Source: Leptothrix discophora (lineage in GTDB: Bacteria > Pseudomonadota > Gammaproteobacteria > Burkholderiales > Burkholderiaceae_C). From it: a stretch of DNA of 64,000 nucleotides. The notes below the pieces were generated by a model. That model ran no database searches, was not told the DNA's origin, and worked only from the letters and a program-made list of their open reading frames with translations. A program made the position numbers and the translations under genes. Positions 16,224 to 21,680 of this stretch are shown one piece after another (the first letter of the stretch is position 1; each line of letters opens with the position of its first letter). The DNA lies in assembly GCF_030705305.1 (NCBI RefSeq), contig NZ_JAUZEE010000003.1, forward strand, positions 124,001 through 188,000. The letters are read 5' to 3'.

Positions 16224-16457
16224 ATGTGGACCTTTGAACACTCAGCCTTGGCGCCCTTCGCCGCAGCCATCGCCTTCATCGTGGTGATGGCCCTGCTCGG
16301 CAGCGGCCTGGGCGGCTGGCTGATCCTGCTTGGGTTGGTGGTCTTGTGCACGGTCGCGATCCGCTGGGATAGCGCGCGGAAGAGGGAGCAGGAAGAGCGC
16401 GACGCATTCCTGCGTGCATTCCTCGAAAAGCATCGCCGCGAGAACGGCGAGGCCTGA
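16224..16457 (+). CDS. Lone plus-strand membrane protein inside the tail operon (moron candidate)
   Basis: A 77-residue protein with two hydrophobic helices (APFAAAIAFIVVMALL and GGWLILLGLVVLCTVAI) and a charged helical tail (DSARKREQEERDAFLRAFLE). It sits on the plus strand, exactly filling the gap between the GT-chaperone stop (16458) and the tape-measure start (16197), both minus-strand. A strong -10 element lies just upstream, with no Shine-Dalgarno, suggesting independent, perhaps leaderless expression in the lysogen. Location, orientation and small membrane product fit a moron that alters the host envelope or excludes other phages. No family is recognised. Confidence 0.7.
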   Translation: MWTFEHSALAPFAAAIAFIVVMALLGSGLGGWLILLGLVVLCTVAIRWDSARKREQEERDAFLRAFLEKHRRENGEA

Positions 16458-16928
16458 TCAGCCCCGTGCCCGCTGGCTCCCCTTGCGAGCCCATTCCTCC
16501 AGCGCCACCCGCTCCATCGCCTGCAGGCTCTCGAACACCGCATCGCGCCGACGCCGGGCGATGCCGGCCGATTCGATGACGCGCCAGACGCCCGCATAGT
16601 CCAGCCCCGTGGCACCGGCCATGCCCACGCGCCACTGGGTCTGCACGGCGCACCAGATGCCCCACGCCCGCACGTTGTCCGGCCACAGGTGCCAGGGCGT
16701 GCGCTCGCGCTCGGCGATGGCGCAGGGCTGGCCGCCCTCGCCCACCGCGCGAATGCCGGCCTGGGCCAGCAGGCGGGTGATGGGGTTGTCACGGGCTTCG
16801 CCACAGCGCTCACCACCTGGCTCATCGTGTGAGCCAGCCGGATCGCGCTGCAGCGTGAGGGCGTCGTCGTCATCGTCGTCATCCGCGTTGAAGTCGCCGC
16901 GCGCCGAGCGCCGCGCGGCCTCGATCAG
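16458..16928 (-). CDS. T-part of tail chaperone (DUF1799-like), reached by -1 frameshift
   Basis: This frame is open from the slippery site to TGA at 16458 and has no convincing start of its own: read from the slip it begins LIEAARRSARGDFNAD, continues with a run of seven Asp, and ends in the tryptophan-rich part ERERTPWHLWPDNVRAWGIW and an Arg-rich helix. The latter resembles the DUF1799 phage family, commonly found between the G-like chaperone and tape measure. The fused product would have 131 plus 156 residues. Internal initiation at GTG 16743-16745 (95 aa) is an alternative that most automatic annotation would choose. Confidence 0.75.
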   Translation of the reverse strand: MIEAARRSARGDFNADDDDDDDALTLQRDPAGSHDEPGGERCGEARDNPITRLLAQAGIRAVGEGGQPCAIAERERTPWHLWPDNVRAWGIWCAVQTQWRVGMAGATGLDYAGVWRVIESAGIARRRRDAVFESLQAMERVALEEWARKGSQRARG

Positions 16929-17320
16929 TTTCCCCGCCGGCCCGCGTCGGTCTCGCCGATCTGCAGGGCCTGCATGTAGGCGACGTAGACGCTCTGCTCC
17001 ATGCCGGCGAGGTCGAGCAGGCAGTCCAGCGCCTCGCGGCTGAAGGCCGCGTGCTGGCCGGCCTCGTCGAGCACCAGGCGCTGGCCGCGCCAGTCGTGGA
17101 TGTTGTCCAGCAGGAAGTCACGCAGCAGGCCGTCGGCGCGGCCGGTGGCGATGTCGCGCAGCTCTTCGAGCGACAGGCGACGGGCCTGGACGCTGAAGTT
17201 GAAGGTGAGGTGGCGCGAGCCGTCCTTGAGCACGCCCTTGACGGGCACGTCGATGACGTTGCCCACGACCAGGCGGTACTTGCCAGGCGTGGGGGTGGCG
17301 TGCGGGGTGGTGTCGTTCAT
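16925..17320 (-). CDS. Tail assembly chaperone, lambda gpG-like
   Basis: A 131-residue protein, MNDTTPHATPTPGKYRLVVG onward, with a beta-rich first half and helical second half (LRDFLLDNIHDWRGQRLVLD). It lies between tail tube and tape measure, the position of lambda gene G. AAGGA lies 8 nt before the ATG. Its last codons are GGA AAC TGA and overlap a -1 slippery heptamer, so a fraction of ribosomes should continue into the downstream frame to make a GT-type protein, which in lambda binds the tape measure during tail assembly. Confidence 0.82.
   Translation of the reverse strand: MNDTTPHATPTPGKYRLVVGNVIDVPVKGVLKDGSRHLTFNFSVQARRLSLEELRDIATGRADGLLRDFLLDNIHDWRGQRLVLDEAGQHAAFSREALDCLLDLAGMEQSVYVAYMQALQIGETDAGRRGN
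16928..16934 (-). promoter_or_regulatory. Programmed -1 frameshift site, G GGA AAC followed by TGA
   Basis: On the minus strand the bases read GGGAAAC immediately before TGA (16925-16927). In the zero frame the codons are GGA AAC TGA; slipping back one base gives GGG AAA then CTG and an open frame of 156 codons. This is the X XXY YYZ type and differs only in the last base from lambda's GGGAAAG in the G/T genes. Confidence 0.82.
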
Positions 17321-17342
17321 GGGTCCGGTCCTTGGGTGGGGC

Positions 17343-17396
17343 GATCAGGTCGATCAGGGCGATCAGGTCGATCAGGTCGATCAGGTCGATCAGAGC
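17343..17396. repeat. Six tandem 9-bp units between tail tube and chaperone genes
   Basis: GATCAGGTC is repeated six times with two variants (units 2 and 6). The array starts 22 bp beyond the chaperone start codon and its last unit supplies the stop codon of the tail tube gene. It would vary in length easily by slippage. Confidence 0.9.
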
Positions 17397-18355
17397 GAGA
17401 CGATGCGCAGGTCGTCGTTGCCGCTGCTGGGCAGCAGCTTGGCGTCGAAGGCGACCAGGCGCACGCCGTCCTTGTCGGCCTTGGTGATGCCGGTGCGCTG
17501 GATCAGCGGCGCGTGCAGGATGTGCTTGTTGCCGGCCGCCGTGCCCAGCGTGATGCCCAGGCTGGTGGTGGTGTTGGCGATGATGTCGGCCAGCGCGGCG
17601 ACCTCCTGCGCGGCGGTCAGTTCCAGCTCGAACTTGGCGCTGCAATCACGGTCGGTGATGTCCACGCGCTCCTCGGACAGGAACTGCATGAAGGCGAGCT
17701 TGTTGCCCAGGTCGATCTCGATGCCGGTGGAGTTGAACCGGGTGCCGCCGGTGAGCGCGCCCGCCGCGTAGGTGCAGCCCAGGGTGATGTCCACCACGCT
17801 GGCCTTGTTGACCACCGGCGGCACCTTCCAGGCTGTCAGCGTGGCCGTCGGGTTGGCCGTGGCGGTGGCGGTGTTGTAGACGCCGGTGAACTCGAACTGC
17901 AGCCGCGGCACCTCGCCAACCTTGGCGCTGAGCTTGCACGTGCCCATGGCGCCGGTGAGCTTGTGCAGCACGCCGTCGTCATGGCCGCAGAGGGTGAGCG
18001 TCTTCAGGCCGGTGCTGGCCGGCGAGTACTCGACCCGCGCCGGCGTGGCCAGCACGGCCTCCGACGCGGCGCAGGCCATCACCAGGTCGCCCCAGGCCGG
18101 GGCGGTGCCGGCCGCACCACTGCCGGCCAGCTCGACGGAGAAGGCGATCTTGGCGTTGTAGCTGCCCAGCAGCTGCATGCTGCCGCCGAAGTAGGGCAGG
18201 TAGAGCTTGCGGTCGACCAGCTTGGTCTCCAGCGGGGTGATGGTGACGCTGTCGGCGATCAGCACGGCATCGGCCGCGCCGGTGGGTGCGGCATCGGTGC
18301 CGGCGGTGGCTTCGAGCTTGGCCAGGATGACCATGTTCTTGACGTAGCGTGGCAT
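17390..18355 (-). CDS. Major tail tube protein
   Basis: A 321-residue protein starting MPRYVKNMVILAKLEATAGT, with the pattern K-x-E-x-x-x-G-x-D that opens many siphovirus tail tube proteins, and a repeating beta-rich organisation (two halves with similar spacing, as in duplicated tube domains). It lies between the tail terminator region and the chaperone, the expected position. No membrane segment. The C-terminus runs into the 9-bp tandem repeats. Confidence 0.82.
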   Translation of the reverse strand: MPRYVKNMVILAKLEATAGTDAAPTGAADAVLIADSVTITPLETKLVDRKLYLPYFGGSMQLLGSYNAKIAFSVELAGSGAAGTAPAWGDLVMACAASEAVLATPARVEYSPASTGLKTLTLCGHDDGVLHKLTGAMGTCKLSAKVGEVPRLQFEFTGVYNTATATANPTATLTAWKVPPVVNKASVVDITLGCTYAAGALTGGTRFNSTGIEIDLGNKLAFMQFLSEERVDITDRDCSAKFELELTAAQEVAALADIIANTTTSLGITLGTAAGNKHILHAPLIQRTGITKADKDGVRLVAFDAKLLPSSGNDDLRIVSL

Positions 18356-19667: not shown

Positions 19668-21680
19668 TCAGCTGCGCAGGGCGTCGAGCACGGCCGCGAA
19701 GCTGGCCGGGCGGCGCACGGCGATGTCCATGTCCTGCAGGGCGATGATTCGGCGGCCGCCGGAGGTGGACAGCGTGATCGGGTCGATCACCAGGTCCAGG
19801 CCGGACCAGAAGCCCATCAGCAGCTCGCGCCAGGCGCCGAAGACGATGGCCGAGCAGGTGCCCACCGCCGTGCCCTTGGTGAGGTTGGCCGGGCAGTTCT
19901 GCGTGACGGCGGCGGGGTAGCCGTTGACGCTGTTGTCGGCCCACACCGCCTGGCCATTGGTGCTGCCGAAGACCTGGGTGAGCTTCAGGCGGGCGCGCAT
20001 CTTGGCGTTGGTGACGTAGGCCATGGAGCCGATGTCGGCGTTGGCCAGCGCGATGGCCTCTTCGAGCGCGACCATGTGCTCGTAGGTCGGCACGCCGCCG
20101 TTGGCACCGATGGCGACCGCGCCGATGCCGGCCGTGTTGAGCACGCCGCGCGGCTGCGGCGCGCTGCCGCTGCCGGCCAGCGCGACGCGGTCGATCTCGA
20201 CGGCGATGCCCATGGCCAGGTCGGCGCGCACCAGGGCCTCGATGCTCAGGGAGGGCTGCAGCAGCGTCTTGCGGCTGTAGTCGGTGAACATGCCCACGGT
20301 GCGCGGCGTCATCGTGACCTGGCCGAAGGCGGCCTGGGACTCGGTGACGGCCACGCCCTCGTCAACCCAGTAGGTGGCCGCGCCGGCGGTCTGCGAGGGG
20401 ATGGCGATGTTGCCGCTCAGGCCGTCCAGCACGGTGGCGCCCAGGCCGGCGATGACCATGCGGTTGCGCAGCAGGTCGATGAAGCTGCCGGCCAGCAGGT
20501 CGGTGGCGACCAGGTTGCCGCCGGCCGTGGGCGTGCCCACGGTGAGGTCACGCTGCTGCAGGCGCTGCGACAGCAGCCGCACGGCATCGCGCGCGGCATC
20601 GGCCTGGTGGGCCACGTTGCCCTGCAGGATGTCCACCGGCACGGTGAAGCCGCTGCCGCGCTGCGCGGCCAGGTGGCCCTGCTCGTCGAGCGGGCGCAGC
20701 TTGCGGGCCTGCACGCTGCACTCGATCTCGAAGGCGGCGGCCTTCTGCGCGTCGCTGTCGTGCGGGTCGAGCATGGCGCGCATCAGGCGGGTGATGCTGT
20801 AGCCGCGCTGGTCCTTGGGCGAGAGGCCCAGCTCGGGCTTTTCGGCCGGACGGATGCTGCCGGAGACGGTCAGGCGATCCAGCACGGCGGCGCGGAAGGC
20901 GTCGACCGTGGTGCCGTCGTTGACGGCACGGTCGGCCTCATCGGCGAGCTTGTGGGCGCTGCCCATGGCGCGGATGACGCTGATGCGCTCGCGCTCGCGG
21001 CGGATGGCGTCGGTCTCGATGACGCGCACATCGACCGCGGCGGGGGCGGCGGCGGGCGGGGTGACGGGAGGGGTGACGGGAACGGTGGTGGCAAGGGTGG
21101 TGGCATCGCTCACAGGGGTCTCCTTCTTCTGAGCGGGGACGGCCGGGGCGGCCAGGGAACGGCCGATGCCCACGGTGGGATCGGCCGGGATGCTGACGAG
21201 GGACACCTCGTAGGGCGTCCATCGGGTGACGCGGTAGGTGGCGTCGGTGTCGGTGCGGGCTTCGAGCACCATCTCGTCGATCGCGTAGCCCACGCTGACC
21301 AGCTCGCGGATGCCGTCGATGACGTCGCGCATGACCTCCTCGCCCAGCGCGCTGCGCGAGAAGCGCACGGTGGCGCGGGCGCGCCGGTCGGTGTCGATCC
21401 AGGCCCGTTCGACCACGCCGATCTGCTGGTCGGGGCGGTGGTTGAGCAGCAGCGGGTGGCGGCCGTTGAGGCGGCTCAGGTCGACGGCAGCGGCGGTGCA
21501 GTCGAGGATCTCGGTGCCGAACCAGCGGTCATAGGGCAGCTCGGAGGCGAAGCACAGGTCGACGGTGCGGGCCTGCTCGTCGACCTGGGCACGCTGCTGC
21601 GCGAAGGCGCGGCGCTGGATGCCGGTGGTGGCCTGGCGGACGTCGTCGGGGATGGCGGTGCGGTCGATGGGCACGGTCAT
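19668..21680 (-). CDS. Prohead protease fused to HK97-type major capsid protein
   Basis: A single 670-residue frame. Residues 1 to about 170 match U35/HK97-type prohead proteases, with the histidine motif LLLNHRPDQQIGVVE and the serine motif ELVSVGY. A proline/threonine linker (TVPVTPPVTPPAAAPAA) follows, then a helical delta-like domain. The C-terminal half is an HK97-fold capsid protein (GGNLVATDLLAGSFIDLLRN, then the P-domain and LQDMDIAVRRPASFAAV at the end). The start ATG 21678-21680 is 3 nt past the portal stop. One polypeptide implies self-cleavage of protease and scaffold from the shell subunit. Confidence 0.9.
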   Translation of the reverse strand: MTVPIDRTAIPDDVRQATTGIQRRAFAQQRAQVDEQARTVDLCFASELPYDRWFGTEILDCTAAAVDLSRLNGRHPLLLNHRPDQQIGVVERAWIDTDRRARATVRFSRSALGEEVMRDVIDGIRELVSVGYAIDEMVLEARTDTDATYRVTRWTPYEVSLVSIPADPTVGIGRSLAAPAVPAQKKETPVSDATTLATTVPVTPPVTPPAAAPAAVDVRVIETDAIRRERERISVIRAMGSAHKLADEADRAVNDGTTVDAFRAAVLDRLTVSGSIRPAEKPELGLSPKDQRGYSITRLMRAMLDPHDSDAQKAAAFEIECSVQARKLRPLDEQGHLAAQRGSGFTVPVDILQGNVAHQADAARDAVRLLSQRLQQRDLTVGTPTAGGNLVATDLLAGSFIDLLRNRMVIAGLGATVLDGLSGNIAIPSQTAGAATYWVDEGVAVTESQAAFGQVTMTPRTVGMFTDYSRKTLLQPSLSIEALVRADLAMGIAVEIDRVALAGSGSAPQPRGVLNTAGIGAVAIGANGGVPTYEHMVALEEAIALANADIGSMAYVTNAKMRARLKLTQVFGSTNGQAVWADNSVNGYPAAVTQNCPANLTKGTAVGTCSAIVFGAWRELLMGFWSGLDLVIDPITLSTSGGRRIIALQDMDIAVRRPASFAAVLDALRS

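Follow-up and report, generated by a model that had tools for sequence, protein, structure and literature searches.

A chaperone-like gene and an overlapping -1 frame upstream of a tape measure gene

The DNA analysed here is a 64,000-nucleotide stretch of Leptothrix discophora sequence, the window, which belongs to a 4.65-Mb bacterial assembly. On its minus strand, two overlapping open reading frames, the second in the -1 frame, lie upstream of a tape measure gene. The first, G (16925..17320, minus strand), is a tail assembly chaperone-like frame of 131 codons with an ATG start and a TGA stop, recognized as an open reading frame with a match to phrog_569. The -1 frame stays open between 17117 and a stop at 16458 (minus strand) and shares 190 nt with G. 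Its portion past the end of G, the T extension (16458..16927, minus strand), consists of 156 codons and a stop and is predicted to be reached by frameshifting. The T extension contains a DUF1799 domain (PF08809; 16494..16697, minus strand, or 140494-140697 on the contig) at its residues 78-145 (E 1.5e-21; 76.8 bits against a curated cut-off of 26). That a -1 slip would open 156 codons with a DUF1799-like end had been proposed in the initial annotation, and our reading of the frame bears this out.

The next large minus-strand gene after T is the tape measure gene (TMP_3, PF20155; 11236..16197, minus strand; 1653 codons, E 2.7e-53), whose long frame is open and whose product is the expected client of G and the GT fusion. 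Upstream of G lies a tail protein gene (17390..18355, minus strand) that matches phrog_290, labelled minor tail protein, with an E value of 1e-23; it sits where the tail tube gene usually lies, and we infer a tail tube role from that position only. Profile matches in the window place portal, capsid/protease and head-tail attachment genes further upstream of G. The structural genes surrounding G and T thus identify the region as a prophage structural module.

Three other features of this module were seen. A membrane-like open reading frame of 77 amino acids on the plus strand (16224-16457) takes up most of the space that separates the stop of T (16458) from the start of the tape measure gene (16197); in a tblastn search of the relative loci (E up to 1) it matched the window itself only, and it had no NCBIfam match above cut-off. 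Short direct repeats, GATCAGGTC-like units found by eye, occupy 17342-17394, in the interval that separates G from the upstream tail protein gene. At 19671-21626, prohead protease-like (Peptidase_S78) and major capsid domains share one open frame.

We asked what profile and structure searches say of G. The window protein matches phrog_569 weakly (E 1.2e-4) and has no match in Pfam or NCBIfam. Among 13 aligned members of its family, 11 match phrog_569 (best 2.2e-12), four match phrog_313 and three phrog_8233, the latter two both labelled tail assembly chaperone, and one matches Phage_TAC_4 (0.0011). A fold search with a predicted model of G (mean pLDDT 82.1) returned nothing at E 0.001 or better, the best match having an E value of 0.35. 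Searching PDB sequences gave no match for G and two chance-like matches for T (E 0.32 and 0.41), and a tblastn search for phage relatives of G gave none at 1e-3 and one unconvincing match at E 0.8. Weak profile matches together with gene position tentatively suggest that G is a tail assembly chaperone.

A slippery heptamer lies flush with the stop codon of G

The zero-frame G reading frame, running from 17320 to 16925 on the minus strand, terminates in GGA AAC TGA, which sets the phase of the heptamer as G_GGA_AAC (16928..16934, minus strand). The heptamer sits in the final two codons of G, within the overlap with the -1 frame, and the TGA (16925..16927, minus strand) follows it directly, just as the initial annotation had described. 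When the whole G gene was scanned, GGGAAAC was the sole in-phase heptamer of the form X_XXY_YYZ. By itself the heptamer is not rare, with four copies in the window against 3.8 expected; its significance rests on phase, position and relatives. A -1 slip at this site would join 131 and 156 residues into a predicted fusion of 287.

The alternative in which no frameshift occurs has the DUF1799 part made as a separate protein of 95 residues. Between the slip and the DUF1799 core, the -1 frame holds one start codon (ATG, GTG or TTG), a GTG at 16745 that lies 63 codons past the heptamer start and begins a 95-aa open reading frame, so a frame for such a protein is present. No Shine-Dalgarno-like match precedes this GTG, in keeping with the earlier view that T has no good start of its own. 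Some existing records also show a separate gene: the DUF1799 frame is annotated as its own gene in Xanthomonas phage Kintu and Acinetobacter phage Silvergun, and likewise in VarioGold (PMC9658991). The comparison with relatives that follows bears on this reading directly.

The heptamer is conserved in place and phase across relatives

To collect relatives, we searched 399 same-family genomes for DUF1799. Matches were found in 56 genomes, the window's own included, giving 69 rows in 68 loci, all 68 of which were read; another 11, taken from phages (3 of 691 tblastn-matching records), viral contigs and genome contigs, brought the set to 79. A search with the G protein yielded seven entries, six of them (L005-L010) at loci also read through DUF1799; the seventh, L011, was left out, being a weak match (E 9.7e-4) from a genome with no DUF1799 match and having no heptamer at the stop. 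An earlier pass over the loci had sought any X_XXY_YYZ heptamer. In the 79-locus set, the search was for five named heptamers lying over 70 codons ahead of the domain end, and all 79 loci carry a correctly phased heptamer upstream of DUF1799, either AAAAAAC or GGGAAAC except for a single AAAAAAG. One locus (L082) had two matched pieces, and its heptamer was found with the upstream piece.

Two wider searches gave the same picture. A class-level search of 369 genomes added eight new loci, seven with the heptamer. For viral contigs, loci from a profile search were scanned for heptamers that begin AAAAAA or GGGAAA and lie over 70 codons ahead of the domain end; 80 of 81 rows have one (the best 80 of 174 loci, plus L003). 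Pooling all sets, a heptamer of the same phase and in the same place occurs in 166 of 168 rows, the window and repeats included. Two DUF1799 loci, L091 and L173, have no in-phase heptamer; L091 may use its own start, and L173 deviates from the consensus inside the heptamer.

For statistics, near-identical loci were removed, three (L039, L049 and L082) before the 76-locus statistics and 40 of the 80 heptamer-bearing viral rows as near-identical to others, leaving 123 non-redundant loci. Their heptamers are AAAAAAC in 91, GGGAAAC in 31 and AAAAAAG in one. Across the 240 nt upstream, 9784 other positions were checked, and none of four heptamers of this kind occurs in phase at any of them. Conservation of the protein encoded in the -1 frame starts at the slip codon itself: Lys-Leu occurs in 118 of 123 loci, and the seventh residue is Arg in 94. 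This indicates that the frame is read from the slip rather than from a later start.

These observations make separate translation of the window's DUF1799 part from the GTG at 16745 very unlikely. Some start codon does occur between the slip and the DUF1799 core in 99 of 123 loci, but a Shine-Dalgarno-like match precedes a start codon in that stretch in only 20, and conservation of the -1 frame begins well upstream of the window's GTG. A separate T start was rejected on these grounds, the missing Shine-Dalgarno-like match and the conservation from the slip. The phages annotated with a separate gene do not help this reading either, since Kintu and Silvergun both carry GGGAAAC in phase directly before the upstream stop; their annotations are likely to be missed frameshifts. 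More broadly, nearly all DUF1799 frames read here look like tail chaperone frameshift extensions, which suggests why such frames are at times annotated as separate genes.

The relatives also speak to two explanations that do without programmed ribosomal slippage. Frame breaks are common in prophages, and the two frames could be a single gene broken by a frameshift mutation. We give that idea practically no credence: the relatives already contradict it, with the same frame change at the same kind of heptamer in 166 of the 168 pooled rows, and further downstream the long tape measure gene is an unbroken frame. Alternatively, RNA polymerase rather than the ribosome might slip. Runs of A are able to make polymerase slip, and the A-run heptamer AAAAAAC is the most frequent among the non-redundant loci. 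However, the run in the window is merely G4 followed by A3, the alternation of AAAAAAC and GGGAAAC in one phase is what tandem tRNA re-pairing predicts, and the selected hairpin and flush stop described below suit translation. We regard polymerase slippage as extremely improbable. Comparison with relatives instead supports the original proposal of a GT-type fusion of 287 residues made by -1 frameshifting.

The flush stop codon appears to be selected

We compared stop placement with a null in which the -1 frame was recoded synonymously 1000 times using the loci's own codon use. A zero-frame stop lies flush with the heptamer in 101 of 123 loci against 37.5 expected (sd 3.8, maximum 50 in 1000 draws); because the loci share ancestry, such cases do not count as independent. 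In the first, 76-locus set, the corresponding values were 57 and 24.9 (sd 3.1). A stop one codon past the heptamer is enriched as well, in 11 of 123 loci against 2.5 expected (maximum 6).

Codon choice at the first -1 position shows how this comes about. That codon is Leu in 118 of 123 loci. Where Leu is followed by G, only CTA or TTA makes a stop, and the rare CTA is used in 28 of 32 such loci; elsewhere in the same T regions, stop-making Leu codons precede G in 16 of 628 cases. Where the next base is A, a stop is made in 72 of 73 loci, compared with 102 of 180 occurrences elsewhere in the T regions. In the 76-locus set, CTA comes first in 11 of 76 loci, whereas it makes up 3.1 percent of the Leu codons across the T regions of these loci. 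Judged from this pattern of synonymous codons, the flush stop is clearly under selection in the DUF1799 family, and the TGA of the window's G is one instance. Where Leu is followed by C, in 13 of 123 loci (e.g. L019, L030, L044, L060), a flush stop is impossible; the codon there is CTC in 12 and CTT in one, never the commonest CTG, a bias that may come from shared ancestry.

Why would a stop be selected at this spot? We favor the view that it serves chiefly to terminate G promptly at the slip, because stops one codon further on are enriched too. The initial annotation had suggested a further role for the stop, namely that it might stall ribosomes and make slippage more efficient. In that view, a ribosome held with its A site on the stop and its E and P sites on the slip codons would frameshift more, and selection for a stop at that exact spot is strong, as the use of CTA before G attests. 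Several observations weigh against this idea. Enrichment of the stop one codon later suits simple prompt termination; the flush position is filled by all three stops (TGA 65, TAG 28, TAA 8); and in lambda, five codons separate heptamer and stop. Moreover, in work on a stop codon placed after the HIV slippery site, the stop lowered frameshifting in cultured mammalian cells, where the authors urge caution over their reporter, and release factor 2 abolished it in bacteria (PMC4373837). We therefore consider stimulation by the flush stop unlikely. It is similarly doubtful, though worth stating, that in DUF1799-type operons the stop is a working part of the -1 signal, such that the weak AAC heptamers slip while the A site holds the stop, and the supply of release factor sets the ratio of GT to G. 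If true, these sites would form a 'shifty stop' class of bacterial -1 frameshifting that has been retained, together with a hairpin close downstream, in many phage lineages. Prompt termination remains our preferred account of the selected stop.

A putative downstream hairpin is kept beyond codon constraint

A putative stimulatory hairpin, absent from the initial annotation, begins 8 nt past the heptamer (16896..16919, minus strand), with an 8-bp stem formed by GCCGCGCG and CGCGCGGC. All eight pairs are possible in the window. Pairing was examined in 29 of the 123 loci, selected because RG (or ALG, ATG) is encoded where the 3' arm lies; among them, 204 of 232 stem cells are paired against 154.9 expected (sd 5.6, maximum 173 in 2000 draws), and all eight pairs form in 16. 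The outermost pair is G-C in 18 loci, C-G in three (L028, L034, L097), G-U in two and U-A in one, and is unpaired in five. In these 29 loci, the hairpin looks conserved beyond what its codons require.

Folding across the whole set points the same way. The 50 nt just past the site fold more stably than their synonymous recodings (mean z -0.98, n=123), against mean z values of -0.14 to -0.32 at 60-180 nt further on (n=123); the null is slightly biased, as the control offsets also lie a little below zero. In the 76-locus set, folding peaks at the site (-1.14), with eleven other offsets at -0.57 to +0.09. Taken alone, the window hairpin is ordinary for its composition (z -1.10, with 27 of 200 dinucleotide shuffles as stable); against synonymous recodings its z is -2.19. 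Its spacing agrees with published work, according to which stimulators usually begin 5-8 nt downstream (PMC4066793). On the other side, a review notes that in certain tailed phages frameshifting seems to proceed without stimulatory signals (PMC5009743).

Looking upstream, we found no Shine-Dalgarno-like stimulator just before the heptamer in the window. Such a match lies 6-17 nt upstream in 40 of 123 loci, compared with 1 to 29 at control offsets, and it is possible that an upstream stimulator of this kind is an extra in some loci.

A model for production of G and GT

A programmed -1 frameshift giving a GT-type chaperone fused to DUF1799 is strongly supported by these sequence comparisons, and the site very probably belongs to a lambda-type G/GT system of the DUF1799 kind, with roles as set out here. 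We infer the occurrence and rate of slippage and the protein roles as follows. Most ribosomes would read G and halt at the TGA, yielding the 131-residue chaperone. A minority would slip back one base on G_GGA_AAC, tRNA-Gly re-pairing from GGA to GGG and tRNA-Asn from AAC to AAA, a slip that the GC-rich hairpin would aid. Slipped ribosomes would add 156 codons to give the 287-residue GT ending in DUF1799, and the flush stop would end the short form exactly at the slip. If the ribosome moves on before slipping, release factor would compete with slippage. G and GT would then associate with the tape measure protein, while T would bring in the tail tube subunit in lambda-like fashion.

Published systems give a sense of the output to be expected. 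In lambda, the tape measure protein is bound by G and GT, present at a molar ratio of about 30:1, and the tail shaft subunit is brought in by T (PMC5009743). Frameshifting of 6 and 7 percent is reported for two genes of a phage tail chaperone cluster (PMC3711429), and AAC heptamers had low efficiency in E. coli, which the authors connect with off-cognate re-pairing from AAC to AAA (PMC4066793). With a weak AAC heptamer, a flush stop and a hairpin, the arrangement therefore looks like a tuned low-output signal. More than 100 natural sites share this one geometry of weak AAC heptamer, flush stop and downstream structure, and the set lets the effects of stop codon and release factor on bacterial -1 slippage be measured directly.

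Comparison with known systems

As in lambda G/GT, the -1 heptameric slip here lies near the end of G, ahead of the tape measure gene; the lambda heptamer is GGGAAAG, five codons before the stop, whereas here GGGAAAC is flush with it. For two sets of phages, PRFect gives mean distances of 26 and 36 nt (PMC10274946).

A close published counterpart is gp18/gp19 of Burkholderia phage KL1 (JF939047), in which GGGAAAC immediately precedes a TGA as in the window and for which the authors predicted a downstream stem-loop (PMC3483164). The KL1 record is annotated as a joined frameshift product. Its T part is unlike the window's in a comparison by eye only, and KL1 has an extra gene before the tape measure gene. 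The tape measure chaperone of Klebsiella phage Solomon (MT701592) is a T relative by tblastn (29.5 percent identity) with an annotated frameshift product; it has AAAAAAC flush with a TAA instead of GGGAAAC, and 105 codons past the slip as against 156. In Acinetobacter phage Loki, the gp12/gp13 heptamer AAAAAAC adjoins the stop and differs from the window's (PMC5313236).

Single cases of a heptamer beside a stop are thus known in print (KL1, Loki), and the window site joins this known class. A literature search of open-licence papers found no study that tested across a whole family whether the flush stop or the hairpin is selected. To the class represented by KL1 and Loki, the present comparison adds a flush stop that appears selected and a hairpin that looks to be kept beyond codon constraint.
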